DNA from: Polynucleobacter sp. 80A-SIGWE
Lineage (GTDB): Bacteria > Pseudomonadota > Gammaproteobacteria > Burkholderiales > Burkholderiaceae
NCBI RefSeq assembly: GCF_018882295.1
Contig: NZ_JACVOR010000001.1
Coordinates: 923,130-987,129, forward strand
Direction of reading: 5' to 3'
Length of the DNA: 64,000 nucleotides
Part shown: piece after piece, positions 28,791 through 56,858 of the stretch
How the letters are laid out: each line of letters opens with the position of its first letter
How positions within the stretch are numbered: position 1 is the stretch's first letter
Made by a program: the position numbers and the translations under genes
Notes under the pieces: generated by a model
Told to the model about the DNA's origin: nothing
What the model saw: the letters and a program-made list of their open reading frames with translations, nothing else
Database searches by the model: none

Positions 28791-28938
28791 CAGTATTTCA
28801 TAGGCCTAAGAGGCAAAAAATGACTGTGCAATTGAATTTGCGATTGCACGTTGGCGCAATGTTCTGATCCCTAGGTGAATATTGAGTTTTTAAGTATTGG
28901 AGTAAATTGACGTATTGGACAGAAATATAGGGGTAGGT

Positions 28939-29775
28939 ATGGCCGAAAAGACATTTAAAGTTTTCTTTTACACCACGTCGTTTGGTTTGGATGGGGAAAC
29001 TCTAAGGACTACTTTTGATCAACTAAAAGGTTCTTTATCGCAGAATGGGCATTTACCACATCAAGATATCGAGGGGCATACATTTCAACTTAGGGATTTG
29101 CAGCATGACACCAGCAAGGGTGGCTGGAAGGGTGTTTTTGGGAGGCTAAGATCAGATGCTCCAAACGTAATTACAGCTGATGATATGGAAAATGCGTTGC
29201 CCTTGTCAGAAACGGATCTTTTGATTGAGAAAAGCCACTTCCTCTACAAGCCAAATGAAGATTTGTTAATTTGGCAATTTAATATGGACGTTGGATCTAT
29301 TAATAAATTTGCAGCCTATCTTGCCAACTTGCTTAATTCAGCTGTAGGGTTAAATATTATTGTGGATATACCAAACCTTCAGAAGGTGATGAATGGAGTT
29401 ATCAAGTACTACGAAATAAAGGTTGCCGCCCCAAAAGTTCCCCTATCGAAGATTCCGTCATATTCACAGGCTATATTTGATTTAATGAAAGATGCAGGTG
29501 CATCAAGTATTAAATATAGAATTTCTGCAGGAAGGGATACGCTTGCTGAAAAAGTAAAACGCACGATCAAAGATCTACTAAATGAATCAACAACTGAGGC
29601 TTTAAAGGTTGGCTTGGAAGGGGAGCAGGATCCAGTAGATTTGTTGGCTGACAAAATTTTTGCAAGAATTACAGTCGAGCTAAAAGGGCACTATCCTGAC
29701 CCTATCGATGTATTTAATTCACTAGATTTGGCCTTTTATAGCAACAAAGATCAGCTAAAAAAATTCATAGGGTGA
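28939..29775 (+). CDS. Cytoplasmic protein of a two-gene module, DUF6731-like
   Basis: A soluble protein of 278 residues with no signal or membrane segment. The pattern KVFFYTT near the start and PLSETDLLIEKSHFLYKP, WQFNMDVGSINKFAAYL in the middle recall the DUF6731-type family found in prophage and defence contexts; this is from memory and unverified. ATG 28939 is preferred over the upstream TTG 28915 because a GGGG-type ribosome site precedes it. It ends 3 bp before a small four-helix membrane protein gene, so the two are almost surely co-translated. A sensor or regulatory partner for the membrane protein is a reasonable guess. It lies right after the large terminase, a common position for phage accessory genes. 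Confidence 0.65.
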   Translation: MAEKTFKVFFYTTSFGLDGETLRTTFDQLKGSLSQNGHLPHQDIEGHTFQLRDLQHDTSKGGWKGVFGRLRSDAPNVITADDMENALPLSETDLLIEKSHFLYKPNEDLLIWQFNMDVGSINKFAAYLANLLNSAVGLNIIVDIPNLQKVMNGVIKYYEIKVAAPKVPLSKIPSYSQAIFDLMKDAGASSIKYRISAGRDTLAEKVKRTIKDLLNESTTEALKVGLEGEQDPVDLLADKIFARITVELKGHYPDPIDVFNSLDLAFYSNKDQLKKFIG

Positions 29776-29778
29776 AAT

Positions 29779-30201
29779 ATGTTTCTTAGACCAATAATGC
29801 TCGTAATTGTCTCAATTGTATTTTTTTCTGTCGCCTATCTACAGGGGTATGAGTTATTCAAAAACGGAACCGAGTTTTTTTCAGTAATCAGCACTTTTTG
29901 TCAGGTTAGCGCAACAATGATGGGCTTCATGCTTGCTGCCCTTGCAATACTTGCAAGCATTACTGATAAACCATTATTGGTGAAAATGAATCAACAAGGC
30001 CACTATAGTGATTTACTAACCCATTTGTTTGCTGCATCTTTTGTGTATTTCATCATTTTTGGAATGACTGCATATATGCTAATTACAGGGGAGTCAGCTA
30101 GCTTAGTTCGATTGTTAGTGTTGACGCTAATAGTTTCTGGGGGCGTTGCCACCATGCAAGTGGGCTATAAATTTTGGATTGTTCTAAAAAATTTGCGATA
30201 A
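29779..30201 (+). CDS. Four-helix membrane protein of the two-gene module
   Basis: A protein of 140 residues with four predicted membrane helices at about 4-22, 35-60, 82-103 and 107-128. A short polar loop between helices 2 and 3 holds ITDKPLLVKMNQQGHYSDLL. There is no cleavable signal. Small membrane proteins paired with a cytoplasmic partner are common as effectors in anti-phage or abortive-infection modules, but nothing here proves that role. The 3-bp spacing from the upstream gene implies coupled expression at matched levels. Confidence 0.65.
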   Translation: MFLRPIMLVIVSIVFFSVAYLQGYELFKNGTEFFSVISTFCQVSATMMGFMLAALAILASITDKPLLVKMNQQGHYSDLLTHLFAASFVYFIIFGMTAYMLITGESASLVRLLVLTLIVSGGVATMQVGYKFWIVLKNLR

Positions 30202-30265
30202 CTGTTTCGAATGCCGAAGTGAATAAGTAATTTCCAAAACCTCACTTCCCCACCCAATTCTTTGG

Positions 30266-31525
30266 TTAATTACTCTGTGCCTCATAGGCCCCTTCCGCAA
30301 GGCCAATAATCTTCTCTAGATAATCAGCCGTTGTACATTCAGTCATAAAGCCTCTGACGCCTAAATTGATTCTAGGAATTGCTCGTTTGATCTGTGTTTC
30401 TAGATTATTGGCATTCTTACCAACTTGAAACTGGTAGGTCATTTTTTCCAGGATCACCCCTCCAGCCTTTTTTAGCTCGTACTTATGAGTATCAAATCGA
30501 CCTTTGGCTTGATTCGTAATTCCGTAGCCAACATATAGTTGTTCGTTTAGTTTGATTTTGAGGATGTAGAAGATGCCCGGTTTTGAGCCATCAAAACCGC
30601 CATCTTTAAATGGGTTGCTATGTTTTCGAAGGCCTCCTAAAGTCGTCCATCGAAAGTCCTTTCCATCGGTGACTTCAAAGTATTGATGACCTTGCCGTTT
30701 TTCATTATTGCCGGTGAAGATAAGGCTAATTTCTTTTGCAAATTGCGCGGCACTTTGGCATTGCTCTTCTATCGTTGCAACAGCAAAAGGATTAATTTGC
30801 TCTTCCAGTCTATTGAGTGTTGACCATCTAAATTTGATCCCGTCCGTAAGCTCAAATCTTCTCTTATTGCTTTTACCTTCATTAATCTTTCCTGTAAAAG
30901 TCAGACCCATGGCTTTTGCAAGGCTGGTAGCTTGATTAACTTGATCAGTTAGACTGCGCAGGGTAAATGGACTCTTGCCTTCTTTAAGATGTTCTTTGCT
31001 AATCCATTTAGTGTCTACGCCATCTGATACTGCATACTTGCGCGAATTTTTGATTAGCTTACTTTCCCCCGTGAGCTGTAGACCAAGCTTTTTGGCGTAC
31101 TCTTTAGCTTCCGTTAGTTGCTGAACTAGTGTCGCAACGGTAAAAGAATTTTTTCCTGCTCTAAGATTGCCTAGGGCGCTCCACCTAGATTCTTCGCCAT
31201 TGGAAATTTCAAACTTTCGGGCGTTGCCAGCTAGATGGTTATGTTTTCCGGTAAAGGAGAGGCCCATATTTTGGGCAATTTTGGCTACTTCAATAATCTG
31301 TTGATCTAATGTAGAGCGGTTGAAATGATTTGTGATCTTTTTAAGATCGCCCAAGGTGCGCCATTTATATTCCGTACCATTGGTGATTTCAAAATACCAT
31401 GCATCACCACGTTTTTCATATTTGCCAGTAGCGCCAATACCAAGGCGAGAGGCTACTTCTTTTGCCTCTGCAGCAATTTCATTAATTGGTCTTGGTTTGC
31501 CCATGCTTAATACTAAAACACCCAT
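30266..31525 (-). CDS. Five-repeat protein with C-terminal GIY-YIG-like nuclease domain
   Basis: A protein of 419 residues. Five imperfect repeats of about 60 residues span roughly 15-312, each with the pattern GLxFTGK, FEhTDG, RWxTLxxL, NPFxxxT. The C-terminal part (about 316-415) reads IFYILKI, LYVGYGI, GRFDTHK and LETQIKR. This matches the order of GIY-YIG nuclease elements: paired aromatic strands, a catalytic Arg and a catalytic Glu. The repeats probably bind nucleic acid, and the nuclease end could cut it. A second possible start, at ATG 31504, would remove seven residues. It is divergent from another GIY-YIG-type gene. A homing-endonuclease-like or defence nuclease role is inference. 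Confidence 0.65.
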   Translation of the reverse strand: MGVLVLSMGKPRPINEIAAEAKEVASRLGIGATGKYEKRGDAWYFEITNGTEYKWRTLGDLKKITNHFNRSTLDQQIIEVAKIAQNMGLSFTGKHNHLAGNARKFEISNGEESRWSALGNLRAGKNSFTVATLVQQLTEAKEYAKKLGLQLTGESKLIKNSRKYAVSDGVDTKWISKEHLKEGKSPFTLRSLTDQVNQATSLAKAMGLTFTGKINEGKSNKRRFELTDGIKFRWSTLNRLEEQINPFAVATIEEQCQSAAQFAKEISLIFTGNNEKRQGHQYFEVTDGKDFRWTTLGGLRKHSNPFKDGGFDGSKPGIFYILKIKLNEQLYVGYGITNQAKGRFDTHKYELKKAGGVILEKMTYQFQVGKNANNLETQIKRAIPRINLGVRGFMTECTTADYLEKIIGLAEGAYEAQSN

Positions 31526-31606
31526 TGGAAAAGATTGAAGTGTTGCTTAAAGTAACGCTTAATATAGAGGTATGGCTAGCATTTTTAACTTCGTAGGGAT
31601 TGTGTA

Positions 31607-32503
31607 ATGAAACCTGGCTACATCTACGTGCTCACTCATCCATCCGATCCTAAGCTATACAAAGTGGGGGTGACGATACGCGAGCCTAAGGTGAGACTTA
31701 CTCAACACAATAGTGATTTCACCAAAGCTGCTGGACGCATTGTTAAAGAAACAGGGAAAGAGTGGCAATTAAAAGAGTTTCACCCTGTAGAAGATCCCTA
31801 TTGGGCTGAGAAAGCATTCTGGAGTCAAATTCCTCAATCAGCCATTCCCTATAGAAGCGGCGTTGAGGTAGAAATAATGTCTTGGGAAGAGGTTTGCGTT
31901 GGAATTGCAGCAGCTAAAGACGCCGGAATGCGGCCAAAATCTTCAGCTATTTCCACATATCAGACCGCCTACAACGTTTCGGTTAAAAAACGTTTAGTAG
32001 GGCGGGATATTACTCTTTTGGGTGATGTCAAAAGTATCGTCAGTGGCAGAAATGATTTCCAATGCAGCAATGGCCATCAGTGGCGTACGCGACCTAAGTT
32101 AGTGATGGAGGGGGAGGGCTGCCCCGAGTGCGGTATGGGCACAAGAACTCCAGAAGAGATGATGGAGATAGCAAACGCCGGAGTCGTTTGCCTATTAACT
32201 CATCCCGATAAACCTGGTTACGTCAGGATAGGCATTCGGCGTGGCACATTAAATCAAATATCAAAAGACTATCCCTGGGGTGAGTGGGAGATTCATCGGC
32301 ATAGAAACGTTGAGGAATTGGCTTTAGCCGAATCCCTTATTTGGGAATTATTGGGCAAGTCATTACCCCATAATCGCGAGCCAATAAAAATCGAGTTAGC
32401 TGATGCCGAGGAGGCTATGCGCTCATTAATTTACGCATTACAAGAGGAGATTGCATTTGAAGATGGCAGGGTTAGACCACCACTTTTCATCAGAGGAGGT
32501 TGA
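31607..32503 (+). CDS. Duplicated GIY-YIG-like domain protein with zinc ribbon
   Basis: A protein of 298 residues. The N-terminus GYIYVLTHPSDPKLYKVGVT and later RLTQHN match the T5orf172/MUG113 branch of the GIY-YIG superfamily. In the middle, CSNGHQW and GCPECG form a four-ligand zinc ribbon of the kind found beside DNA-binding nuclease modules. A second domain, VVCLLTHPDKPGYVRIGI with LAESLIWELLG, looks like a degenerate copy of the first. It is divergent from the repeat/GIY-YIG gene across 81 bp, and it ends 1 bp from the convergent outer-membrane gene. Nuclease activity is plausible but the catalytic set is not fully clear. Confidence 0.65.
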   Translation: MKPGYIYVLTHPSDPKLYKVGVTIREPKVRLTQHNSDFTKAAGRIVKETGKEWQLKEFHPVEDPYWAEKAFWSQIPQSAIPYRSGVEVEIMSWEEVCVGIAAAKDAGMRPKSSAISTYQTAYNVSVKKRLVGRDITLLGDVKSIVSGRNDFQCSNGHQWRTRPKLVMEGEGCPECGMGTRTPEEMMEIANAGVVCLLTHPDKPGYVRIGIRRGTLNQISKDYPWGEWEIHRHRNVEELALAESLIWELLGKSLPHNREPIKIELADAEEAMRSLIYALQEEIAFEDGRVRPPLFIRGG

Positions 32504-32504
32504 T

Positions 32505-33401
32505 CTAAAACTCTTTCATAAACCGCAATGTGAATACACGAGTTTGCATCAGCCCATTTTGTATCCCCATATCTCTTCCATACTGTAAAGAAAATCTACC
32601 AACATCAGTATGTATTAGGCTGCTGAGCATAAAGCGCTGAGTGTTGATGACATTATTTTGGTAGACATTATTGATGGTAGTAGCGCCACCGGCTACGTAG
32701 TAGTACTGGGCAGATACCGTAAAGATTTGATTGATCTTATAAATCGGACCAACCTGTGTGGTGGTTACCGGTTTTTGATTTAAAGCAACATTGGTCGATG
32801 AAAGGCATGCGACCGAGCATTGACTGTTGCCACCATAGAACATCGTGTCGATTGCAAACATACCATCAAGATTGCCGATGATGGGTTGCTGATAGCCTGC
32901 TTGGATAGCAGTGGTGTAGCGATTGCCTCCCATATTGAAGGGCTGCATACTCGAGTATCCCCCTGTAGGTATCGTGAGATATGCCGCTAGTCCTAAATAA
33001 GTGCGAGTTTCACGATTGGAGTAAGGCCAAATTGCTGTTGCTAAAGCAATATCTCCAATACCGGTATCCGAAGGAGTTCCCGATAAAGAGCCTGCAGGTT
33101 TAACGCTTCCATAAGGTATCTGTATGTATGAGGCAGCAGGAAGATTGGCTAGCGTATAGGTGCCAATAAATTTTGGAATAACGCTTTGGGCATCAACTAC
33201 AGGGCTGGCAAAGGGACTAGCAGAAACTACAGCTCCATTCTTATAAAAAGTGGTGTTTTCAGTGTTGTAGTAGGTTATCTGCGCATAGCGCTTATCCGGC
33301 AGTGGTGCCACGATGTCGTTAGGTTGTAAGTCAATTCCCCAACCCACTAATGGGTAGAGGAGAAAGTAACAACAGTAAGATTTTTTTAAAAAATGCCTCA
33401 T
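32505..33401 (-). CDS. Outer-membrane protein, phenol-degradation MetA-pathway (Phenol_MetA_deg) type
   Basis: A protein of 298 residues with an N-terminal signal peptide (MRHFLKKSYCCYFLLYPLVGWG). ATG 33401 is preferred to 33422 because the signal begins there. The body has alternating amphipathic beta strands with motifs typical of this barrel family (DTGIGDIALATAIWPYS, YLGLAAYLTIPTGGY), and it ends in Phe, as many outer-membrane barrels do. The family is associated with uptake of hydrophobic or aromatic compounds, but few members have been tested. It is divergent from the histidine kinase gene. Its link to the adhesin cluster is unclear. Confidence 0.75.
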   Translation of the reverse strand: MRHFLKKSYCCYFLLYPLVGWGIDLQPNDIVAPLPDKRYAQITYYNTENTTFYKNGAVVSASPFASPVVDAQSVIPKFIGTYTLANLPAASYIQIPYGSVKPAGSLSGTPSDTGIGDIALATAIWPYSNRETRTYLGLAAYLTIPTGGYSSMQPFNMGGNRYTTAIQAGYQQPIIGNLDGMFAIDTMFYGGNSQCSVACLSSTNVALNQKPVTTTQVGPIYKINQIFTVSAQYYYVAGGATTINNVYQNNVINTQRFMLSSLIHTDVGRFSLQYGRDMGIQNGLMQTRVFTLRFMKEF

Positions 33402-33472
33402 TAATTCTGGTGGGCTTGCCATGGGAAATGCGTATTTTATGTGGATTCTTGGACAAAAAACATTTTTTGCAT

Positions 33473-33496
33473 AAATCCCTTATTAAGGGATTTTTT
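33473..33496 (+). terminator. Hairpin with T-run just upstream of the kinase gene
   Basis: AAATCCCT and AGGGATTT form an 8-bp stem with a 5-nt loop, running into six T bases. It sits 15 bp before the kinase start, so it looks like a leader terminator or attenuator for that gene rather than the end of an upstream plus-strand gene. The neighbour to the left is on the minus strand. Confidence 0.5.
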
Positions 33497-33510
33497 AGAA
33501 AAGTAGTAGG

Positions 33511-34953
33511 ATGGCGAACATGCAATATGCGAATGAAGCCCTTTTTTTAGTTTTTTCCCTCGTGTTGGCCGGGCTGTTTGTTTCATCTTTTCCCTATTTT
33601 AGAGGCCGCATCTCCAGTAAGTTAAATACTTATTGGCTCATTGCATTAGGTCTCAATATAGTAACTTTTCTGTTTTTTGCATCTGCCTCCACGGTGCATC
33701 CAGTTCTGCTTACATTTGCAAATACATTTTTCCTTGGAGCATATTTTTTTCTAGCAATATTTTGTCGCGCATTAAGCGATAAACCTGTTAAATGGCTGGT
33801 AATGCTTTCGCCATTCGTTTTGCTGGTCTTTGGATTGGCATTTGAGTATTTGAGATGGTTTGGAACATTTCAAGGGAGGGTATTGCTTGTCATTCTCTCT
33901 TTAATGGCTTGCATAGTATTAGTTTTAGTTGAGTTGATTTCAATTAAATGGCGCAGCGCTAGGGTTCAGGTTAATTTTTTAATATTTACATTTGCCGCAG
34001 AATTAGTGCTGGGTGTGGTGCGTTTGTGGATGATCCTATTTAATACATCTACGTCTGTGTCCACTCTCTATTCTGAGCCACTGATAAGTACTTTGGTTAG
34101 ATGGTTTGCCGTTGGATTTACGGTGCTTTCTTATATATCCATCAACGGGATCATGGCTGAAAGACTGATTAAAGAGAGTGACGATAGTCGTGAAGATAGT
34201 ATTCGAGTAAGCAAATTACTTGCTGAGCGAGATGCCTTAATTGCCAATTTATTAAAAAATAATAAATCTGCCGCTGCTGGTGCTTTATCGGCATCAATTG
34301 CCCACGAACTGAATCAACCTCTAGGCGCTTCTTTACTCAATATTCAATTTTTGAAAATGGTTCATGAATCAGGAAGGCTCACCCCTGAGCTGCTAGAGCA
34401 ATTAATCAATCAATTGGAAAAGGATGCGAAACGCTCTGGAAATATTATTCGCTCGCTGCAATCTGTTTTTGCTAAGAGCTCGGCTGACTTTGAGGAGTTT
34501 TCAGTTGAGGAGGTAATTGAATCTGCCTTAGCAATTTATAAGCTAGATTTAATGGATAGGGGTATTACTTTTGAGAAGTCCCTAAACATACCCATCAAAA
34601 TCTATGGCCATAAAGGTCAGTTTCTTCAGGTCTTACTTAACCTAATCAACAATTCCATCCAAGCGCTATCGCACATCAATGCAGAAAATAAGACCTTAGG
34701 TATCAACGCTTCTTTGCAGGGTAATTTTGGTGTCGTTGAAGTTTTTGATAACGGACCTGGAATATCCAAAGAGCATCAAGCGCACCTATTCAATCTCTTG
34801 GTCAGCGATAAAGAGAAGGGCATGGGCCTGGGTTTATGGCTGTGCTCTCAAATCTTGGATAATTTTCATGGAAAAATATCCTATGAGGATGCGCCGGGTG
34901 GTGGAGCGAAATTTATACTGAGTTTGCCTGTTACCCCCCCCCAGCGGACTTGA
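33511..34953 (+). CDS. Membrane sensor histidine kinase (480 aa)
   Basis: Inner-membrane sensor. About seven hydrophobic helices fill residues 8-210 with no large periplasmic domain, then a short coiled region (215-255). The dimerisation/phosphoacceptor box SIAHELNQPLG has His at about 265. The ATPase domain shows the N box NLINNSIQAL, VFDNGPGIS and the GMGLGLWLC G box. It probably phosphorylates the response regulator encoded 113 bp downstream. The few bases after the last domain contain a run of nine C (34934-34942). ATG 33511 follows GTAGG closely; ATG 33520 is an alternative. The signal sensed is unknown. Confidence 0.92.
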   Translation: MANMQYANEALFLVFSLVLAGLFVSSFPYFRGRISSKLNTYWLIALGLNIVTFLFFASASTVHPVLLTFANTFFLGAYFFLAIFCRALSDKPVKWLVMLSPFVLLVFGLAFEYLRWFGTFQGRVLLVILSLMACIVLVLVELISIKWRSARVQVNFLIFTFAAELVLGVVRLWMILFNTSTSVSTLYSEPLISTLVRWFAVGFTVLSYISINGIMAERLIKESDDSREDSIRVSKLLAERDALIANLLKNNKSAAAGALSASIAHELNQPLGASLLNIQFLKMVHESGRLTPELLEQLINQLEKDAKRSGNIIRSLQSVFAKSSADFEEFSVEEVIESALAIYKLDLMDRGITFEKSLNIPIKIYGHKGQFLQVLLNLINNSIQALSHINAENKTLGINASLQGNFGVVEVFDNGPGISKEHQAHLFNLLVSDKEKGMGLGLWLCSQILDNFHGKISYEDAPGGGAKFILSLPVTPPQRT

Positions 34954-34976
34954 TTCTTTGAGAGCATAGGTAATCC

Positions 34977-49600: not shown

Positions 49601-52600
49601 TGGTGTACTTGGCAGCGATCTGATCTCGGTATCGTCTACTGGACCTTACACCGGTACCTTTAGCCAATCTAACGTCGGTACCAACTTGAACGTTACGCCA
49701 GTAACCACAACGACCATGATTAATGGTGTGGCTTACACCACCATGGCTGGTGTGACTTTGACTGGTACAGCGGCAAGTAACTACTATGTCACTGGCTTAA
49801 CTACCCCAATCGCTGCGAACATCACACCTGCACCATTAACCATTGCTGCTGGAGTAACTGCGCAAAATAAAGTGTATGACGGCACTACCGCCGCTACTAT
49901 TACTGCGAGCACCCAAACTCTATCTGGCGTACTAGGTGGTGATGCTGTCTCGGTATCGTCTACTGGCCCATACACTGGTACCTTTAGCCAATCAAACGTG
50001 GGTAGCAACTTAACCGTTACTCCAAGCTTGACCACAACAACTATCGGTGGCGTGGACTACAGCACGATGTCTGGTGTGACCTTAGGTGGCGCAGCAGCAG
50101 GGAACTACTATGTCACTGGTATCTCTGCACCAGTGGTAGCGAACATTACTCCGTACGTGATCGTGCCTGGTTCAACTACTGGCCCACGTATCGTTGCTAG
50201 TGCTATCGACAAGATTTATGACACGACGACTGTCGCGAACGGTAGCTTGGCAATGGCAGGCCTCTTTGGTAGCGACGTGGTATCAGTTAACTACTCAGCA
50301 GCCAGCTTTGCTAACCCGAATGTGGCTAGCGGTATTACCGTAACTTTTGCTAACCCATCACTATCTGGTGCAGATGCTGCTAACTACACTATTGGTACTG
50401 GCGCGGTAACTGCTCCAGCAGCAATTACTCCAGCACCACTCACAATTACTGCTAACACCCAATCATCCTTCGTAACCCAGGCGATTGGTGCTCTAAGCTA
50501 CTCCACTGTTGGTTTATTGGGTGGTGACACCGTCACAGCAGCAACTCTAGCTACTACTGCAACTAGTTCGTCTGTTGCTGGCAATAATTACCCTATTACG
50601 GTGAGCGCTGCAACGATTAGCAGTGGCGCATCGAACTACGACATTACTTATGTGCCTTCGACTTACACCATCATCCCAGCAGGGCAGTTGCGTGTACAAA
50701 CGAGTGGGGCGATTACGCCATACGGTACAGCGGCAACTTACGCCAACCCAACAGCTTCTTACTTGACTACTAGCGGCGCAGTGATTAGTAACTTGAGCTT
50801 TGTGAGTGCAACAACAGCTGGTGGCGTAACAACGTATACCTACGCTGATGGTGCTAGCGGTACCGTGAGCTTTAACCTCTCACCAACAGGTACAACAACA
50901 AGTACTTCAGGCAATATCGTCATCGGCACCTATCCATTGGCTGCAGCAAACTTTGCTAGCACTTCTGGTAACTTGACTGCAGGCTCTGCCGTAGTATCTG
51001 GCGATCTGACCGTTACTCCGTTGGCAGTCAATATCGCTGCTGCGCCAGTAAGCTATGTCTATAACGGCACTACTCAGTCTCAAGTAGCTGCTGTAGCAAA
51101 CCCAAGCATCTTGAGTGGTGACTTGGTGACTGTGAGTGGTATCGCTACTGGCAGAAACGTGGGTATTTACAACTCTAACCTGGCTGCTAGCGGTGCTGAT
51201 GCGGCGAACTACAGCTTTACTTATACCAATGCTGCTCTGACCATCACACCATATGTGATTGATCCAAACGCTACTACTGGCCCACGCATTACAGCCACTG
51301 CCAATAACAAGGTCTATGACGCAAGCACTGCAGCTACTGGCGCATTGGGTATGACTGGTCTGTTTGCTGGTGATGTAGTGACAGCAAGCTACACAACTGC
51401 TGACTTTGCGAGCAAGAATGTAGCTAATGGTATTACCGTCACCTTTAATGGTGTGACTTTGTCTGATCCTAACTATGCAGTTGGTAGTGGGGCGGTGACT
51501 GCAACAGCCAACATCACGCCTGCGCCATTAACGATCGCAACAGGCTTGGCTGCGCAGAACAAGGTCTATGACACCACAACAGCGGCAACCATTAGTGCTA
51601 CTGGCGTACAAACATTGTCTGGCTTATTAGGTACTGACGCAGTGACTGTAGCCTCTACTGGTCCATACACTGGCACCTTCAGTCAGTCCAACGTAGGCAC
51701 AGCATTAGCTGTAACCCCAACAACAACATCTACCACCATCAATGGCGTGGCTTACACCACCATGGCTGGTGTGACGCTGACTGGTGCTGATGCAGGGAAC
51801 TACTATGTGACTGGCCCAAGCTCTACATTGACAGCCAATATCACGGGCAAATCGATCACTATATATGCGCTTGATCAAGCAAGCTTCTATAGCAAGCCAT
51901 TAAATACCTTGGGTTATGCTCCAGTGGTTGGTTTATTGCCAGGCGCATCTGTGACTGGAGCAACCCTTGCAACAACAGCAACTGCTACAGGCGCAAACTC
52001 TGCGGCTGGTCAATATTCGATTACTGCTAGCGCCGCAACTGGAACTGGCCTGGGTAACTATCTGATTACTTATGCTCCAGCCACTTACACTATCGTTCCT
52101 GCAGGACAGCTGTTGGTATCCACAGCTGGGGTGACTACAACCTACGGTACGGGCACAGCTACTGCCGGCCCAATCATTAATCCAGCGCAACCTACAGCCA
52201 CTTATATTGCTTCTAATGGCGCCGCTATTAGCAGTCTCACATTTGTAAGTTCAAGCACGTCTGGAACTGTGGTGTCTTATGTGTTCCGTGATTCTGCAAA
52301 TGCCGAGATCAGCTTCAATTTAACGCCAGTAACTACAAGTGCCAATATCAGCTCATCTAGCAATATCAAAATTGGTAACTATGACTATCTAGCATCAAGC
52401 CTGTCTGCAATTCCGGCTGGATTGACTACAACAGCAACAGTAACAACAGGTGCGTTGACTGTGATGCCTTTAGCCGTAACGGTCACTGCGACTGCAGCTA
52501 CTACAGCTTATAACGGCGCTGTTCAGTCACAGGTACCGGCTACTTTGACACCTAATATCGTTGCTGGTGATTTAGTGACTGTGAATGGCATTGCCACTGG

Positions 52601-53714
52601 CAAAACTGTTGGAGTATATGGCTCCGCTTTATCAACTGCTGGTGCAGATATTGGTAACTACCAGTTCACCTATGTGAATAACAATCTCACCATTACTCCA
52701 TACATCATTAATTATGGAGCCGGTGGTTCAGGTCCTGCTATTGCAGCATCCGCAAGCAATAAGGTATACAACACTAATACTGTAGCTAACGGCGCCTTGT
52801 CGATGGTTAATTTATTCCCTGGCGATTCAGTAACAGCGAACTTTGGAAGCGCTACATTTGCTACACCTAACGTGGGAAACAACATCACCGTTACCTTTAA
52901 TGGCGTGACCTTATCTGGTCCAGATGCCTTGAACTATGCAGTCGGTAATACTCCGGTAACAACGACAGCCAAAATTACACCTGCACCTGTAACTATCAGT
53001 GGTTTGGTGGCTGCTAATAAACAATATGATGGCAATACAGCAGCGGTCATTACCGGCACGCCGACTATCACTGGTTTGTTGGGTTCAGATACATCCACAT
53101 TGACTGGTAGCGTCTTATCAGGCACATTTGCTACTGCAAACCCAGGCACTGGTGTTGTGGTGACGGCTAATCTGACGGATCTTATTTTAGGTAATGGAAA
53201 TTACTACATCGCTGATGTGACGTTCCCATTGACAGCTGAAATCATTGCGCCGCCTCAGCAGATTAGCAATATGGCGATCTTGCAACAACAAGTAGCTGCT
53301 GATGTGGTTCGTAGAGATCCAGAGAATCTCATTTATAAGGGTGAATTACTCTACGTCCGCGACAAAGACAATATGCCTGAGTACTTACAAGCTATTGAAG
53401 TACCAAGCTCTGGCGCATTTAAGTTCCCAGTACCAGATCAAATCATTCAAGACTTGATCGACTTGTCTGGTGAAAATAAGGGCGCTACAGCTAAGCTTGC
53501 TACTTATAAGTTGCTACTCTTGCCTAAAGGTACGAAGGTATACGCAACATTAGCCAATGGCGCAGCATTGCCAGCAGGCATTACCTTTAACTCTGCTACT
53601 CAGACCTTTACCGTGCCTAAGCTTGGTAACGTCACCTTGCCAATCTCGGTCAAGTTAACACTCAAGCGTGGCAATCAGACGCTCAGTGAAAAGGTATTGG
53701 TAGTTACCAAATAA
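37689..53714 (+). CDS. Giant two-partner secretion exoprotein/adhesin (TpsA, 5341 aa)
   Basis: Surface beta-helix adhesin, the cognate substrate of the upstream TpsB. The start is TTG 37689: there is no in-frame ATG before the signal sequence, and an upstream stop lies at 37665. A signal peptide of about 39 residues ends near GFAA. The TPS domain (about 40-300) shows AQAATLNYVNSASKSMINGAV, VIFVNNNGVVFGKGAEVNVGG and repeated short strands. WVIDP and WLLDP segments at about 424 and 805 are typical of FHA-like exoproteins. Residues about 850-2500 are beta-helix repeats related to the first giant adhesin. MBG/YDG repeats run from about 2538 to 5185. A C-terminal domain with an Ig-like segment (LPAGITFN) closes it. 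There are no C-terminal Cys. Binding targets are unknown. Confidence 0.93.
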   Translation: MTDRITQTSHRKHCTSQFKAAKLLAALAVAGFAQQGFAAAPAPNALPTGGQVVAGAATITTAGNTMNINQSSQRAVVNWNSFDVGSQAKVNFNQPNAQAATLNYVNSASKSMINGAVNSNGQVIFVNNNGVVFGKGAEVNVGGMVATTMNISATEFMAGNATQVYEGGTTGKVINRGNITGNNINSYIALMAPQVKNTGVITATMGGNNAVALVSGQKVSLTFSGSQLVSVSVDASVVNALISNKLLIKAGSGQVIIAANSAQELMGSVIKNTGVISASDINTSGGKISLTADSIEQNGTVEANSAQANGGNISLKGNNITLASGSKTTATGATAGGNINVGVNQANTLANTVAIEANAIVDASATQNGNGGNINIWSQIKTLVAGNLFAKGGAQGGNGGHIETSSKSNVAIAASATVDTSAPIGRSGMWVIDPIALIIDSAAASAISNALNTTSVTLDATGSACAFGSCTNSQSALIRIMAGADIYSSNTATSLNLIATGGQIDIHSNITAGSVYAVAQGINVYGSVNTNGGSNSNIYLAGAIINILGNINSNGNNQNNSSSSNLNSANTITGANRRNGQNGLNAESNTYLSNGGLINILATGDITVDANSYISSNGVNGGVVTITSTAGKVAINGIVDSIGKSNTAGNIMIAGKTETNLIGSLISVEGLNVGGMINLGQINNLGNGTILAPPATAPPALITFVQDSVAAATSNNATSITSSNINIDSQTGINAPNGNIVVFGEQIQVNDSSITAANGTIAIGREAYSAGALAALVAVTNSTLTANKVETSGELLGTDGATVHAAEWLLDPTNVTIGATSTTGTLAGDLANAGVTNIKASDIVAAVNAGGTVSVIATGSITQSAALAFAPAAGVTGTLILDNRTTTTPSTAPIQISFATTNTGLGTVNLNYYSGGVLNIEGNITSTSGKINFLGQSFWASNSFVGSSTVYKGANIYVGASKVITTMGGYAVLDATGGTATGLGDPTGIAVSIGTIVNGIINQDTGASINTTQDGAAVGATTTGGGNVIINASRANNDGTTGQGAWQPRGNNPINAGGTFTANVRATGTAGAGYVVSAYGANAPISSYGNFVFNVTGNAVTSVPIGTGVQKPFITITSAFSSYAGSLTLNANVTGAKGGIWVKSASVSAYGDITFNSSSTSADASIQIDNPVISSNGQVTISGTGVTSVGVAANATGDITGSKITINGTSTGAAAATTAAVSLVGNTITVNTVANASYIATLQNAVSITGNIATDGNAGINSTAIINDNAVGGGISFVTNGDISQTGLITLAPNTSTQPQNIVFDTRTGNQNSKITTGAVAYTAGTPNAVVNYTELANGGALTVGAVTVTGYIQLDNTCLGCTTPGVSDLSPASLAASLTTAAGLTVSGALQSDQYIAINTLNNSATLNAVALGANTLTVTNQSTAATAISVIGNHNTANAGAPGIASTGAIANNANGGSVLFKSNGDISQTGAVTVAANTSGTASSIVYDTTAGNKNSSITAGALTLTGGVAASNTAINFIEKSAGASITVGALSMPGFITLDNTYGGTAGPGGSPASGFINFDNALTSAVLGTGINIQGPISSGAYSGANGITVNGVSAGGSATYAINLATGFSATATTGDINFTGISPAVYGAYILSPITANNGNINIIGVSGSTSSAGVLLGQVANIVASGNILISGSDINATTNNAAYGVWIYGNALTFTKIAAGGNVTISGFNSNTGGLGTYAIYMGLQGPTYIKSGGDTIIAGSTPFGTSTTVKNLYLDKLVTNVGGNLWIEGATLQTQTNSSGTAIPNVATAVPNSAALNGATGGIGIDIQTSKTITDGTTFTGINAVGNIWMSGTGGAGGININGVPITSSSGAITLTGSTAAAGAIGFKDVGGIIKATNGVVTITGNSTTGTAVSDTALITGNSIIVTGNATALPTTIVSLNAMTINACAVGVDCTSHDLEVYAWGGGAQTSATNTGGKTGISQTGAIAANANGGSILFKSNNIISQAGAITIAENTSGTNSLVSYDTTFGTRLSTIDGGALTFTGTSSNYINYNNLASGAPIIVNSALVVPGSITFDNTYLAGVQGGINTNNAWQYGTIATAQKGIYISSSLTASNGIYVRGVIGATTAAVVSCCNAVDITDGLSGALTTLQTTGTFAAGTSAIEIIGIQPIYNMTSGANTQNAVKINGNVAINNNSIGGKTNIVAISGHYNDIVSITNASTAGSINVSAIGLYARIITISGTLFTQNSNAGIFIASSENGNVIPPKIINNGTGPVVIEAGAYYPVGTVSTGTCSASACGQITTVAGNTITSALGDVYLYAGSPGTTAGTTTTQAALNILDSSLNTLTFDNTLFGQAYAAGNVAATSIPLDTLAAINTANVASGTGFTSWTTTSANGPVIQFRIQPTVTAKLSGNIVKVYGQNDPLATAGNVAVAGSLDYQLNALFVKDPAVNPGYVANGTTGCVSTSGCMKTTVNGVNFILPMDDFINSLQAVPTSARASFGTVAGEQVNGTSATSFASSYAYSLTSTHGTLVSSGITLNLGPVGLVITPAPLTITASNQTIQAGDVFTAGTTAFTTSGLALAPNGVVLGDAISGVTLAAPTYTGQATAGTYAINASAPVFSTGSASNYAITYAPGTLTTTTNLIITITALAESKIYGSSAISSPSSITYNGSGVAVVSGPASALYTITGLPVGGTYTIDSLTFTSAGGIASASVGGSPYTVTPSAVSITTASGSPSIAGASYIYQPGLMTVTPRPITITATPVTTTYGSATPITQTGYTASNNLVAGDAITGATVNYVGASTSTTVPGTLGAGTYSSAIVPSAATGTGGFNATNYAITYAPANLVVNKLAVTVTANAQSTVYGTALALGTTAFTNSIGTLPNGDAITAATLQYNSSANVPATTNAGSYSIVASGATGTGGFGSSNYDVTYATGPLTVTPAPITISAAAPTQGVVYNGSAQTFNAATGLTISGLKNGQTAVLGTTGLGSGTNVGVYTNTVDANLIAGITGGSLSNYTVTYSGAQASLTIVPAPLTIAGATTSVAYDAAAHTNTAPTVTGLKGSDAVALPMGVLGTGTNAGTYADVLAPVFTTGSANNYTITTTNGALTITPKAATITGNTTVNPYSGALQTNTYSTTGIITGDAVTVGGVATATHVSQGTVPDVFTVSGASAGNYTFTYAPGSITITPVALTVVGATTSAVYNKTTQTNSAATVTGLLGSDTATIGGTYGSGINAGVYTDSLSVGLSNPSDYAVSITNGTHTITPAIITVNGITAQNKVYDATTAATLNVGTITTTGVLPGDTVTLQTSTLSGVFTDKNVGNGKTVLISGVVLAGTDSANYQLSGGANTTTTANITPVPLTITGVDLTATYNASVQSLAAPTVTGLIAGDNVTVAGNATGTNAGAYAAAYTASGVDSGNYTVTANAPVLTINKANLVVTANNAGKFYGQADPVFTATIAGLQGSDTATVNSVTSTVTGTTAATGTYPTAINASGVTSTNLANYNVTYVPGAYTITPADVLVITMNAATTTYGTAAAPTVASVQFATGTGVNTTVVTLTKSGDTYTDGAYSITVTPAITDQGVIPVVSGASTTWNVGAYTNAVSNTNNYNQAGSPFLGVTTITNTLTITPAPLALTVADVSKVYNANPITAGQISSGVTVTGGALKNNQTLAGLGGVTLSGSAVGAINVGSYAIDGSVGSGFSNYTVTITNGTATVTPAPLTITGANSSTAYNGATQTNTAATVTGLQGSDSVTVAGYATGLHAGLTTDALTISGTLASNYTPTYVNGTLTITPASLVVTGAVNSYAYNGAVQTNSGASISGLKGSDTATIAGYAEATHVSQGAVPDSLVATLSNPADYTVTYNQGSLSITPIQINAVVASQTVQYNAAEQTTSYTVTGLKGSDTATAFSGTATGTNVGSYTSNLTLVASSDYYVGTITNGTLTITPAPLTITSGLTAQNKVYDTTTVASINATATQTLTGVLGSDLISVSSTGPYTGTFSQSNVGTNLNVTPVTTTTMINGVAYTTMAGVTLTGTAASNYYVTGLTTPIAANITPAPLTIAAGVTAQNKVYDGTTAATITASTQTLSGVLGGDAVSVSSTGPYTGTFSQSNVGSNLTVTPSLTTTTIGGVDYSTMSGVTLGGAAAGNYYVTGISAPVVANITPYVIVPGSTTGPRIVASAIDKIYDTTTVANGSLAMAGLFGSDVVSVNYSAASFANPNVASGITVTFANPSLSGADAANYTIGTGAVTAPAAITPAPLTITANTQSSFVTQAIGALSYSTVGLLGGDTVTAATLATTATSSSVAGNNYPITVSAATISSGASNYDITYVPSTYTIIPAGQLRVQTSGAITPYGTAATYANPTASYLTTSGAVISNLSFVSATTAGGVTTYTYADGASGTVSFNLSPTGTTTSTSGNIVIGTYPLAAANFASTSGNLTAGSAVVSGDLTVTPLAVNIAAAPVSYVYNGTTQSQVAAVANPSILSGDLVTVSGIATGRNVGIYNSNLAASGADAANYSFTYTNAALTITPYVIDPNATTGPRITATANNKVYDASTAATGALGMTGLFAGDVVTASYTTADFASKNVANGITVTFNGVTLSDPNYAVGSGAVTATANITPAPLTIATGLAAQNKVYDTTTAATISATGVQTLSGLLGTDAVTVASTGPYTGTFSQSNVGTALAVTPTTTSTTINGVAYTTMAGVTLTGADAGNYYVTGPSSTLTANITGKSITIYALDQASFYSKPLNTLGYAPVVGLLPGASVTGATLATTATATGANSAAGQYSITASAATGTGLGNYLITYAPATYTIVPAGQLLVSTAGVTTTYGTGTATAGPIINPAQPTATYIASNGAAISSLTFVSSSTSGTVVSYVFRDSANAEISFNLTPVTTSANISSSSNIKIGNYDYLASSLSAIPAGLTTTATVTTGALTVMPLAVTVTATAATTAYNGAVQSQVPATLTPNIVAGDLVTVNGIATGKTVGVYGSALSTAGADIGNYQFTYVNNNLTITPYIINYGAGGSGPAIAASASNKVYNTNTVANGALSMVNLFPGDSVTANFGSATFATPNVGNNITVTFNGVTLSGPDALNYAVGNTPVTTTAKITPAPVTISGLVAANKQYDGNTAAVITGTPTITGLLGSDTSTLTGSVLSGTFATANPGTGVVVTANLTDLILGNGNYYIADVTFPLTAEIIAPPQQISNMAILQQQVAADVVRRDPENLIYKGELLYVRDKDNMPEYLQAIEVPSSGAFKFPVPDQIIQDLIDLSGENKGATAKLATYKLLLLPKGTKVYATLANGAALPAGITFNSATQTFTVPKLGNVTLPISVKLTLKRGNQTLSEKVLVVTK

Positions 53715-53751
53715 TTACCCCAGTAATTTTTAGTAACTGCCTATCTTGGCC

Positions 53752-54039
53752 ATGAGTAATTCAGACCCCACAAAGGAAGCGAGAAGAGTAGGCAGACTCC
53801 TCAAGGATGAGCGCGAAGCCCAGGGTCATAATCTCGCTATTTTGGCTGGCAAGTGCGGTCTTTCGGTAGTGCAAATCACTGCCATAGAGCGAGGTGATAG
53901 CTTCCCGTTCACCAAGGTAGATTCAACTCTCAAGCAAGCCACTAGTATTTACGCCAAAGAGCTCGGCATTGATATTCCCGCTGCCCCATGCGAGGATGAT
54001 GATATTTATATCCCCGAGTTTTTAAGAAAGCGTGAATGA
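53752..54039 (+). CDS. Small HTH protein (RodZ/XRE-type helix-turn-helix)
   Basis: A protein of about 95 residues with a helix-turn-helix core (VGRLLKDEREAQG, LAILAGKCGLSVVQITAIERGD) like the N-terminal domain of RodZ or XRE regulators, but with no membrane segment. ATG 53752 is preferred over an upstream TTG. It starts 38 bp after the tpsA stop with no terminator between, and it overlaps the next gene by 4 bp (ATGA), so it may ride on the adhesin transcript. It could be a local DNA-binding regulator; the target is unknown. Confidence 0.65.
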   Translation: MSNSDPTKEARRVGRLLKDEREAQGHNLAILAGKCGLSVVQITAIERGDSFPFTKVDSTLKQATSIYAKELGIDIPAAPCEDDDIYIPEFLRKRE

Positions 54040-54602
54040 CTTTATCTGTGCGACAGGGCCTGCTTGCGGTATTCCTACTGAGCCTTAGTCTTAGTCTGTC
54101 TGCTACTGAGAAAACAGTGGTGGGCGATTGGATGGTGCAAACTTCTCCGAACTCTATTGAGGCCTCCACTAGTGCAAGTGGAACATCTTTTGGCTTGTAT
54201 TGTCAGGGTGACCAATGCATGTTCTATCTGCATGACAGCTTGCGCTGTCAGCCGGGCAGCAAGTCACCCATCTTGATGAGTGGGGTAGGTAGTGCCGCCG
54301 CATTAAACATGCGGTGCGCCCAAATCAACGGGGTACTTTTTCAGATTCTGGAGCCCTTTAACACTACCTTGGAAGTCGTAAAAAGAGGAGGTGTTGTTAG
54401 CTTTGCCGTTCCACTGCAATCCGGCTCATTTGGAGTGACGCGCTTTAGCCTATTGGGCGGCGCTGAAGCAATTAGGAAGGCGCTGTATGAGGCAGGCAGA
54501 AGTAAGAATAACCCCACTCCAATTGTGCCTCCAACCAATGTAGCGCCTATTCCTAAGCAAGTTGTGCCAGGCTCCCGCCGTCTTCAAGACATCATGATTT
54601 GA
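54036..54602 (+). CDS. Secreted hypothetical protein (188 aa)
   Basis: I do not recognise the family. An N-terminal signal sequence (LLAVFLLSLSLSLSATE) directs it to the periplasm. The mature part has four Cys (GLYCQGDQCMFYL, LRCQPG, MRCAQ) that probably form disulphides, then a Pro-rich tail (PTPIVPPTNVAPIPKQVVPG). It overlaps the HTH gene by ATGA and converges with the parvulin gene 15 bp on. A periplasmic accessory of the adhesin is possible by position only. Confidence 0.6.
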   Translation: MTLSVRQGLLAVFLLSLSLSLSATEKTVVGDWMVQTSPNSIEASTSASGTSFGLYCQGDQCMFYLHDSLRCQPGSKSPILMSGVGSAAALNMRCAQINGVLFQILEPFNTTLEVVKRGGVVSFAVPLQSGSFGVTRFSLLGGAEAIRKALYEAGRSKNNPTPIVPPTNVAPIPKQVVPGSRRLQDIMI

Positions 54603-54617
54603 TGTCTTGGCCAGTGA

Positions 54618-55469
54618 TTAATAGGTAATTCTGGCGCGAGGTCTGAGATCTTTCACGGTCTCAACCAAGTATTGCTGGATAAAAGCTTGGCGAAGCTGGG
54701 GTTTAGATTCTTCAAAAGTGGGTAGCTTGTAATTGCGCTTGTCATCTAGCTTGATGATTGCCCAGCCCCCTTGGACTTGAATGGGCATGGGGTATACGGC
54801 GCCCTTATTGAGTTTAGAAACGAGCTGTTGCATTTCTGGCATCAGCTGCCCTGGGAATAACCAGCCTAATTGACCACCATTGGCTTTAGTGGCGTCGCTA
54901 ATGGAGTACTGTTGAGCCAACTTGCCAAATAACTCACCTCTATTTGCTCTATTGATCAGATCAATGGCATCGGTTTCGTTGGCAACCACGATTTCGCTGA
55001 TTCGGTACTGCATTCCAGAGCTGGCATCGCCAGTCAATTTGCGCTGACGATCGTACTCGGCGCGCAATTGAGCGTCAGTGATTGGGGACTTTTTAAAGTG
55101 GTCCTCAACTAAGGCTTGAATTAAGAGGGTTTGGCGCAACTGTGTGTATTGATCATCTAAATCAATGTTTTTTTCTAAATCCATCCTCTCAGCTTGCTGG
55201 GCTAAAAGCTCGCGATTAATTAACTCTTCCTTGAGAGCTTTTTGGAGTTCAGGGGTATTTCTTTGTCCCTGCGCCATAGCGGCTTTGATATTGAGTTCCA
55301 GCAAGCCTTTTGACAAAAAAGCATCATTAACGGTAGCAAAAAAGTTGATATTTGCACCTTTTGAATCTACTGCCGCTTTTTTTGAAGAAGGGGAGTCTGA
55401 AGCAGCGTAGGCATTGGTAAGACCAGTCAATAGCGCTGCATAAAGCAATAAAGAGAGTTGTTTTTTCAT
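54618..55469 (-). CDS. Periplasmic parvulin-type peptidyl-prolyl isomerase
   Basis: A protein of 283 residues. A signal peptide ends near AYAA (about residue 23). A SurA-like N-terminal helical region follows (LKEELINRELLAQQAE). The PpiC rotamase domain is at about 150-245 (YRISEIVVA, FGKLAQQYSISDATKANGGQLGWLFPG), then a C-terminal helix. Such proteins fold or chaperone exported proteins. In Bordetella the parvulin Par27 binds filamentous haemagglutinin, so placement here suggests a role in keeping the giant TpsA export-competent. That link is inferred. It is convergent with the secreted protein gene and divergent from the ClpP-like gene. Confidence 0.88.
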   Translation of the reverse strand: MKKQLSLLLYAALLTGLTNAYAASDSPSSKKAAVDSKGANINFFATVNDAFLSKGLLELNIKAAMAQGQRNTPELQKALKEELINRELLAQQAERMDLEKNIDLDDQYTQLRQTLLIQALVEDHFKKSPITDAQLRAEYDRQRKLTGDASSGMQYRISEIVVANETDAIDLINRANRGELFGKLAQQYSISDATKANGGQLGWLFPGQLMPEMQQLVSKLNKGAVYPMPIQVQGGWAIIKLDDKRNYKLPTFEESKPQLRQAFIQQYLVETVKDLRPRARITY

Positions 55470-55568
55470 CGGTAGATTATAAATGGTTCAAGCCCAAAAT
55501 TCCCATATAACATTTGGCCTAGAGGCTTATACTAAGCGGGTACATTTCATCCTAAAGCAGGTGCTTTT

Positions 55569-56237
55569 ATGGCAGAAATTATCAAGATTAATTTACGCAA
55601 GTTATGTACCTGCATAGGATTAATCTTGCAGCTTTCGCTGCTCGCTTGCGCCCCAGCTGAGGTTAACCAAAATGATCACACGCATTTTTACGATGGCGGT
55701 CAACTCAGTGCATACACAAACCAGGAGCAATGCATTTTGTTGCTCAATGGCGAAATTAATTCTGATCTTGAGTGGCTAATTGGTCTTGCGCTGGCGGAGT
55801 TATCTGCAAAGCAATGTAAGCAGAAGATTGTTCTTTTGCAATCGCATGGTGGAGATGTCCATAGCGCGATGCAGATTGGTAGGCTATTACGTAAAAATCA
55901 AATCATTGCCCACATCAATGAGGTTTGTGATTCAGCATGTGGTTTAGTGTTTATTGGCGGTAGCCAGCGTACTGTATCGCTAGCTGTCCCCCATAAAGAT
56001 GGCTCAAGGATTGGGATTCATCAAGCAAAGTCATTTTCCGGTTTAAGGCATTGCTTGGCAACGCGAGAGGTTAACCCATTGCTGTTAGGTGAAATCAAAT
56101 CCTACTTGAGGACAATGTTACCCAAGGAAGGTGCGGATTCCTATTACAGGGCATTGATGACTGCACCTTGCGTTGGTATGGAGTACTTGAGCGCCGATTT
56201 TTTACTTAAAAAAGGGATTGCAACCTCGGCGGAGTAA
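55569..56237 (+). CDS. ClpP-fold periplasmic lipoprotein (222 aa)
   Basis: The N-terminus carries a hydrophobic segment ending LSLLAC, a lipobox-like site, so it is probably a lipoprotein. The body has the ClpP/crotonase fold pattern: IVLLQSHGGDVHSAMQIGRLL, then CDSACGLVFIGGS with candidate catalytic Ser at about 122, then IGIHQA with His at about 151. This places it with predicted periplasmic proteins resembling ClpP. Whether it is proteolytic is untested. AGGTG precedes ATG 55569. A degraded copy of its C-terminus lies at 56649-56792, which points to local duplication. Confidence 0.75.
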   Translation: MAEIIKINLRKLCTCIGLILQLSLLACAPAEVNQNDHTHFYDGGQLSAYTNQEQCILLLNGEINSDLEWLIGLALAELSAKQCKQKIVLLQSHGGDVHSAMQIGRLLRKNQIIAHINEVCDSACGLVFIGGSQRTVSLAVPHKDGSRIGIHQAKSFSGLRHCLATREVNPLLLGEIKSYLRTMLPKEGADSYYRALMTAPCVGMEYLSADFLLKKGIATSAE

Positions 56238-56307
56238 TCATGTGGCTATCGAAGTAATGTCTACACTGAACCTATATTAATAAATTTAAGCTAAAACGAG
56301 ATAGAAA

Positions 56308-56640
56308 ATGACGGATGAAAAAAGTAATGACGAAAAGCCAGTAGCTCAAGCGGAGCAGATATCTGGGCGTAGTGTTTTCTTGGTGGAAACTACAGCTGGT
56401 GGCGTTACTGTTAAAACAGTATTTTTAGCTGAAGACGGTCGAGTAATTCAGATGCCGGGTATTTTTCCAACGCAGGAATATGCGCTTTCTCAAATTGATG
56501 AATTACGTAACGTGGTCATCGCACATTTTGCGCAAGCGGTGCAAGTTGGCGCCCAAGTGATTGCTCAGGCAAATCAAACCATAGCCTCGGGGAAAGCGGT
56601 GGATTTAGGTGGGCCAACACCTGACGATACGATTCAATAG
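56308..56640 (+). CDS. Hypothetical protein (110 aa)
   Basis: A small soluble protein with no signal or membrane segment. Its central part (SVFLVETTAGGVTVKTVFLAEDGRVIQMPGIFPTQ begins the core) predicts beta strands, followed by a long helix and an Ala/Gln-rich tail. I do not recognise it. It lies between the ClpP-like gene and its degraded copy, at the right edge of the cargo block. Confidence 0.6.
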   Translation: MTDEKSNDEKPVAQAEQISGRSVFLVETTAGGVTVKTVFLAEDGRVIQMPGIFPTQEYALSQIDELRNVVIAHFAQAVQVGAQVIAQANQTIASGKAVDLGGPTPDDTIQ

Positions 56641-56648
56641 TTAACCCA

Positions 56649-56792
56649 ATGCCTGCAGTACGAAAAATGCCACCCAAAGAGGGCGCTGATGCTTATTGCA
56701 GTTGGATGATCCAATTGCCCTGCAAAGGCAATGAGTATTTAAATGTCTATTTCTTATTAAATATGGGGATCGCAGCATCGGTCGCACATTAA
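56649..56792 (+). pseudogene. Remnant of a duplicated ClpP-like lipoprotein gene (C-terminal end)
   Basis: A 47-codon frame aligns with the last 43 residues of the intact gene at 55569-56237. Shared blocks are PKEGAD, a conserved PC pair, EYL, FLL and GIA, ending at a stop in the same place. The upstream part with the Ser and His residues is missing, so no function is expected. It marks the junction between cargo and phage genes. Confidence 0.7.
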
Positions 56793-56858
56793 TTAAATTG
56801 CATCGGAAATATCCCAAATAAATTCAAGAAAATAAAGTAAGGGCGCTATAAATATGAT

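Follow-up and report, generated by a model that had tools for sequence, protein, structure and literature searches.

A 28-kb gene block occupies a variable terminase-portal slot in a tail-less phage-related element of Polynucleobacter, a likely capsid-forming phage satellite

Gene organization and distribution of the element

The 64,000-nucleotide stretch of Polynucleobacter sp. 80A-SIGWE DNA analysed herein (the window; G000:C1:923130-987129), the right edge of which is a contig end, carries a series of phage-type genes behind a tRNA-Ser gene, among which the large terminase gene (terL) and the portal gene are separated by a long block of other genes (Table 1). Codes beginning with G or L denote the genomes, records and loci compared, G000 being the genome of the window, and C1, C2, C3 and C6 are contigs, those of G000 unless another genome is named. 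The original prediction, made from the sequence of this stretch, had placed the end of terL at 28790 and the start of the portal gene at 56859 with 28 kb in between, which was confirmed with 28,071 bp between the matched ends. The block is probably cargo in the terL-portal slot, the most variable one, of a tail-less, phage-related integrative element that is found repeatedly among freshwater Polynucleobacter and is likely a capsid-forming phage satellite; the window contains the greater part of this element.

The element type encodes terminase, portal and capsid proteins, with an AlpA-type gene present in the window and an integrase gene present in C6 and in the relatives. Besides the profile match given in Table 1, the portal assignment was supported by tblastn matches to two phage records at 24-25% identity, the SU10-type portal model of Pfam remaining below its cut-off (E 1.4e-4). 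A 66-aa AlpA homologue in L061 matched Phage_AlpA and phrog_9834, the phrog search gave no family match for the scaffold-like protein, and comparison of the capsid and portal with PDB sequences yielded chance-level matches only.

Relatives of the portal were found in named Polynucleobacter strains and in metagenome-assembled genomes labelled Polynucleobacter, Burkholderiaceae or beta proteobacterium. With fragments and a few weak matches counted, terL was matched in 28 and the portal in 26 of the 151 genomes of the genus. The capsid protein was matched in 14 of 299 genomes of the family, among which convincing matches beyond Polynucleobacter were confined to G199 (62%) and G224 (45%), three further partial matches lying at 26-30%; the collected relatives comprised 68 sequences with a capsid match. 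Across genomes and IMG/VR records the gene order was fixed as alpA-DUF1376-terS-terL-(A)-portal-scaffold-(B)-capsid-holin-endolysin-(C)-integrase, where slot A is the terL-portal gap and slot B lies between scaffold and capsid. In G004 (L061) it could be read from integrase to AlpA as a tmRNA-adjoining integrase gene, a DUF6680 gene, M15 endolysin, holin, a 128-aa gene, capsid, a pair named AbiE-like by eye, scaffold, portal, terL, terS, DUF1376 and AlpA. Nineteen elements span AlpA to integrase, all with lengths of 13.1-30.1 kb, and the elements adjoin different genes (tRNA-Ser, tmRNA). P. hirudinilacicola MWH-EgelM1-30-B4 is a carrier of a 13-kb element.

As a separate observation, terL of two relatives (L074:12402-13400 and L075:14385-15383) contains an in-frame, intein-like insert of 333 aa behind residue 119/120, for which the Hint-domain match reached E 2.5e-6 in L075 and 4e-4, below the cut-off, in L074; by position, such an insert is also present in G112.

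The variable slots and their junctions

The assertion that terL and the portal gene are normally neighbours held in the tailed phage records, where the two lie 112-179 bp apart in 12 of 12 cases. Comparison of this junction among relatives, a check that the original prediction had proposed, gave a gap of 51 bp in five of 52 tail-less sequences and of 0.37-57.7 kb in 47 more, beginning at 373 bp (overall median 1,857 bp); among the 52 are strains with two records (e.g., G130 and IMG_2590828818), sequences in which a contig end truncates a gene, and two copies in decay, and IMG record 2636416036 was left out of both the gap counts and the motif sets. The joint presence of terL and portal in 52 sequences also bears on whether the two are of one phage, the question for which the original prediction had suggested codon use. 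The largest gaps were those of G049 (12.9 kb), G097 (19.5 kb), the window (28.1 kb) and G148:C1, the last being a decayed large copy (G148:C1:384521-444489) with a 57.7-kb gap and truncated portal and terS genes. Such variability fits the phage-derived island type that had been offered as one of two outcomes.

Both junctions of the slot are precise. On the left, the terL frame diverges after approximately residue 433; on the right, the inserts end to the left of a motif situated directly before the portal gene, and the gap of the five 51-bp elements consists of nothing but this motif. Its consensus before tail-less portals reads ATAAATCCnAAATAAATTC, about 19 variable bases, and TTTATAAATAnGAT. 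With a score model built from 53 distinct upstream sequences (of 61), the window (56807-56858) and eight relatives each gave a single site above threshold, and 74,010 bp of other Polynucleobacter DNA and four tailed phages gave none. Because two ATAAAT repeats 11 bp apart precede a TATAAAT box, the motif may well be the promoter of the portal/head operon and dependent on an activator, and it would probably keep the head operon working despite the inserts.

The contents of slot A were surveyed with 81 representative proteins from elements other than that of the window, leaving out the decayed G148:C1 (47 of 128 mapped representatives), open reading frames (ORFs) of <100 or >1200 aa and 17 unmapped cluster representatives. 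Among the best 25 families, matches to defence models comprised AriA (5), AbiL (4) and Septu-/Gabija-type ATPase models (3-4), the proteins being partly shared, and metabolic matches comprised CoA-transferases (3), TctC (1) and other metabolic families. A reverse transcriptase was also found in slot A, and that of G018 holds a YadA-head protein and an autotransporter, which constitute a second adhesin-like cargo.

Slot B is likewise occupied in the window, where an insert encoding Fic, tautomerase, DUF2917 and MarR proteins separates scaffold from capsid. One of five toxin-like families was found in slot B of 50 of 67 sequences, and two or more in one; the Fic family of the window occurred in 18 of the 67. 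Two Fic families were Pfam-supported and the others were named by eye. In the tailed G199, a PIN-toxin-like ORF, again recognized by eye, lies between scaffold and capsid (L310:1114-1518; joined coordinates 21114-21518), and slot B may thus predate the tail-less form.

Tail-less and tailed forms

The tailed relatives are IMG/VR records, several of about 40 kb, with capsids 69-75% identical. One of them, G154 (40,056 bp), is likely a complete genome of about 39.9 kb because its ends overlap by 123 bp. Matches to tail families follow the capsid gene in L141 and in the prophage of G199, which belongs to another genus, and have no counterpart in the element type of the window, the right end of whose own element lies on other contigs. 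When the tail-region ORFs of G199, L141, L137 and L143, i.e., those after the small gene following the capsid, were used as queries, 0 of 80 tail-less-side sequences were matched, a set that includes IMG record 2636416036 and a few non-satellite contigs (G149, G005, G078, contig starts); in the same 80 sequences the non-tail ORFs matched 56 (terL), 70 (portal), 55-69 (scaffold), 69 (capsid) and 62 (post-capsid small gene). The queries were the longest non-overlapping frames, a few of them on the wrong strand (e.g., L141 11047-12684 over the true tail-fibre frame), and the homologous frames of L137 and G199 were tested where the L141 tail-fibre frame was missed.

The term prophage, which the original prediction had used, was thus inexact: the element is phage-related, whereas none of the tail-less sequences yielded a tail gene, and the tail and ejection genes that follow the capsid in a complete temperate podovirus-type phage were not found here. 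An unrooted tree of 42 portal rows separated the tail-less sequences (29) from the tailed ones (13) with support of 100/100, indicating one change between the two states, the direction of which this tree does not give. We infer that the tail-less form descends from a tailed phage by tail loss.

Ends of the element and tandem copies

A 14-base att repeat marks the ends. The attL copy is the 3' end of the tRNA-Ser gene, and the same bases recur at attR on G000:C2, G000:C6 and G058:C2. Contig C6 carries holin, endolysin and AAA genes, one small gene and an integrase gene, and ends in these 14 bases; its end is found again as the start of C3 and as the end of C2, with overlaps of 127 bp each. C2 continues into the gene that follows tRNA-Ser in empty-site genomes, at least 7 of the 30 loci having an empty tRNA-Ser site. 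The sequences of C1 and C3 break off at one and the same residue of the capsid. Read along the simplest path, C1-C6-C3-C6-C2, these contigs would form a tandem island of about 100 kb, although C3 and C6 might instead make up a circle; the element of the window would accordingly measure about 45 kb from att to att. A second portal gene lies on C3 (43709), preceded by the same motif and without terL. Before it, G000:C3:17000-43600 holds, as judged by eye, a nar (nitrate-respiration) operon with narK, carbonic anhydrase and MacAB-like genes.

Selection on the head genes and exchange of cargo

Fourfold-site differences were compared in 45 pairs of 10 genomes (36 pairs for the capsid). The medians were 61.6% for the host gene DAO, 47.8% for terL, 50.7% for the portal and 44.4% for the capsid, but DAO is a single gene and the fourfold sites are close to saturation, so that no ages are readable. 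The fourfold-site differences ranged over 36-60% for terL and 14-56% for the capsid, and the amino-acid identities were 83-97% for DAO, 93-99% for terL and 98-100% for the capsid; between the window and its sister G058, terL showed 46% fourfold divergence at 98% amino-acid identity. Because the amino acids are 93-100% identical despite such divergence, terL and the capsid gene are under strong purifying selection, which argues against decay. A recent genus-wide sweep, with terL about 97% identical, was rejected by the same fourfold-site divergence.

The original prediction had also allowed that the cargo grounds the phage. This found no support: terL, portal and scaffold are open frames, and judging from the selection on terL and capsid the cargo has not visibly grounded the element. 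The pair G059 and G018 shows exchange; as far as the end of terL the two share 78-81% identity, and from the motif rightwards 97.2% over 13,135 bp, and slot A contains 7.1 kb of cargo in G018 and 51 bp in G059.

Cargo and neighbouring features of the window

The original description of the gap as holding a two-partner secretion (TPS) system with a 16-kb exoprotein, a kinase/regulator pair and a parvulin was borne out by domain matches. Those of the TPS genes were PF05860 (E 1.6e-32), PF03865 (E 3.5e-27) and PF08479 (E 5.5e-15), a TpsA secretion domain and a TpsB transporter thus being encoded side by side, as expected of two-partner secretion. Adhesion is the usual role of TPS exoproteins, and the 5341-aa product is predicted to be a giant surface adhesin. 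The nucleases named in addition stood only in part, the T5orf172 protein, which we take to be GIY-YIG-like, having a family match and the others none, and the supposed ClpP-like lipoprotein gave only a sub-threshold Pfam match (NfeD1b_N, E 0.005, for the ORF at 55569-56237).

The regulator, transporter, exoprotein, helix-turn-helix (HTH), 188-aa and parvulin genes are collinear with G149 at 54-82% identity, the G149 kinase reaching only 32%. Of the 151 genomes of the genus, 65 have relatives of ShlB, with identities as low as about 23%, and the closest (82%, 79%) are in genomes without a terL match; the TPS module as a fixed part of the satellite was therefore rejected. Since the module also occurs apart from satellites, it is a passenger on the element. 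Pieces of the cargo occupy the same slot in other strains (T5orf172 in G019, the ClpP-like fragment beside the portal in G026), and because of this recurrence and the collinearity with G149, an origin of the block by chance or misassembly is unlikely.

Table 1. Features of the element in the window (window positions)
Feature	Position	Strand	Basis or remark
tRNA-Ser(TGA)	24561-24650	+	ARAGORN; last 14 bases (24637-24650) = attL
AlpA-type excisionase/regulator	25126-25341	-	Homology to relatives' copies
DUF1376 / phage primosomal-type protein	25836-26819	+	Family match
terS-like small gene	27048-27452	+	phrog_15261 (unknown function); named terS by position before terL
Large terminase terL, open 444-aa frame	27456-28790	+	phrog_2 E 2e-35, phrog_979 E 2.5e-30
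Slot A cargo, ~28.0 kb	28791-56806	.	terL-portal gap, length variable among relatives
DUF6731 protein and 140-aa hydrophobic protein	28915-30201	+	Family search
419-aa repeat protein	30266-31525	-	No family above cut-off
T5orf172 protein	31607-32503	+	Family match; slot A cargo in G019 too
Phenol_MetA_deg-family protein, adjoins TPS module	32505-33422	-	Family match; beside kinase in G078 too
Sensor histidine kinase; LuxR-type response regulator	33511-34953; 35067-35693	+	Family matches
ShlB/FhaC-type TPS transporter	35798-37573	+	Family match
5341-aa exoprotein	37689-53714	+	TPS secretion domain E 1.6e-32, YDG/MBG repeats
HTH protein, 188-aa protein, PpiC-type parvulin (54618-55469)	53746-55469	.	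Same block in G149
ClpP-like ORF (55569-56237), 110-aa ORF, repeated ClpP-like C-terminal fragment (56649-56792)	55569-56792	+	
Promoter-like motif, directly before portal	56807-56858	+	52 bp
Portal, 648-aa frame	56859-58805	+	phrog_12082 portal E 1.3e-12
Scaffold-like protein	58735-60180	+	Position between portal and capsid; C-terminal part common to tailed relatives
Slot B cargo: Fic, tautomerase, DUF2917, MarR	60297-63349	-	Family matches
Major capsid gene, start only	63502-63999	+	Contig end; full homologue matches phrog_9953 major head protein E 9e-36

Several further features were observed. A second copy of the C-terminal part of the ClpP-like ORF lies at 56649-56792, and the end of this fragment abuts the portal gene also in G026, L104 and L107. 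The leader of the capsid gene (63407-63516) is conserved and common to the tailed relatives; in 25 distinct rows of relatives, one hairpin in it, at 63446-63464, was paired in 97.6% of cells, with both-side changes in three of five pairs. The leader gave no Rfam match up to E 1, and over 24000-64000 the tRNA was the sole Rfam match at gathering scores. To the left of the element, a second giant frame (6771 aa, open at the window start) covers 2-20317, and a further ShlB-type gene lies at G000:C1:915804-917471.

Interpretation of the element

These elements are best read as capsid-forming phage satellites that make up a new family and have an unusually large cargo bay. Such a satellite would replicate, build its own heads, pack its own DNA and borrow the tails of helper phages. 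An insert to the left of the promoter-like motif would leave terL and the head genes working, which would make the terL-portal junction a tolerated docking point, and cargo would be swapped via homologous recombination between the conserved flanks. Loss of about 20 kb of tail genes would have freed space in the head, whose content in the tailed relatives is about 40 kb; this could explain that the largest one-contig cargo of an element whose head genes are open (28 kb) comes close to that limit. Large cargo, giant adhesins included, may move between species on such elements. In a more specific form, which we put forward only tentatively and consider doubtful, tail loss might have turned a 40-kb phage into a cargo vehicle with a full-size head, the freed 27 kb serving as a docking bay before an insulated head-operon promoter, niche genes (giant adhesins and defence genes, and nitrate respiration before the second portal) being carried between Polynucleobacter species, and capsid volume limiting the island size.

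Several points weigh against the satellite explanation. No induction, particle or helper is known for the element type. The approximately 45 kb of the window element, the right end of which comes from contig overlaps, exceeds both the 39.9 kb of the tailed relative and the 13-30 kb of the 19 measured elements, and G058, whose head genes are open, maybe holds 65 kb or more in slot A, provided that its two contigs belong to a single element. Of the 80 sequences searched for tails, many are fragments, the absence of tails resting mainly on the 19 that span alpA to integrase, and the AlphaFold2 model of the capsid (16 rows) had a pLDDT of 36.6. As for the motif, its left half is weak in some elements (G099, G038), some portal sites fit the model badly (lowest training score -35; G053 18.4), and a plain sigma-70 scan of the region gave no match; the model was trained on the sites that it then found, and what is informative is only that other DNA gave no site and that a variable spacer separates conserved boxes.

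A grounded prophage remnant, which had lost tail and mobility and was inherited as a chromosomal region where cargo inserted without selection, would agree with the unmatched tail-region ORFs and with the existence of decayed copies, such as that in G148:C1 and that in G011, where only terL, portal and scaffold fragments are left. This is nevertheless unlikely in view of the amino-acid conservation of terL and capsid amid fourfold divergence, the position of the inserts to the left of the same motif and the presence of integrases and att repeats. The conserved head and lysis genes, the tails not found in the clade and the helper not identified would also suit a head particle that was domesticated, a gene-transfer-agent-like system, or a virus that has no tail and enters without borrowed ones, the head being kept for another purpose. 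An own integrase, AlpA, att sites and a patchy spread next to different genes are more in keeping with a mobile element than with a fixed trait of the host, and we consider this reading improbable.

The contig overlaps of C6, together with the second portal and a capsid start on C3, make tandem copies at tRNA-Ser likely, from which it might be argued that terL and portal belong to different copies and that the 28 kb was left by deletion or misassembly. Such accretion seems very improbable, since the window has no att core in the interval from terL to portal, both cargo junction sequences recur in the same slot of other strains, and 19 other assembled elements have smaller slot contents on one contig. 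A capsid-forming satellite thus remains the preferred explanation.

Relation to known systems and implications

Capsid-forming phage-inducible chromosomal islands (cfPICIs) depend on the tails of helper phages. The present elements resemble them in gene content, having own capsid and packaging genes, integrase and AlpA, and no recognised tail genes. In the available excerpts of the papers cited in this section, cfPICIs are described as having own capsids and as not larger than their helpers (PMC11389934), and PICIs over 22 kb as few (PMC10111431), a small size not shared by the window element (about 45 kb with its inferred end); 19 relatives measure 13.1-30.1 kb. As in the P2/P4 antiviral hotspots (PMC9122126), a fixed variable slot in a phage or satellite carries defence genes; unlike there, the slot is terL-portal, is followed by an apparent promoter and takes up as much as 28 kb, adhesins and metabolic genes being among its contents. 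Helper-embedded PICIs (PMC10111431) are likewise inserted within phage late genes, as satellites with an own integrase inside a helper late gene, whereas no integrase was seen in the window cargo and terL and portal are both open. The giant-gene-region and other islands of P. asymbioticus (PMC5644125) are similar in that giant genes lie on exchangeable islands with recombination hotspots at the flanks; the available text mentions neither a satellite nor a terL-portal slot, the words 'terminase' and 'integrase' occurring 0 times, and phages are there only suspected as island carriers in Polynucleobacter. Our literature search found no paper linking Polynucleobacter with genomic islands and terminase, or with a phage satellite.

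The finding is broader than the original prediction, as it concerns a whole family of elements that bear head genes, have no recognisable tails and take up cargo at a precise slot; the satellite biology, the promoter and the capacity rule are what we infer in addition. How islands with large niche genes move between species is an open question, for which these elements offer a candidate vehicle with ends, a docking site and a size rule. If mobile at about 45 kb, the window element would break the rule of small satellite size and would show that non-phage cargo can exceed the core of the satellite that carries it.

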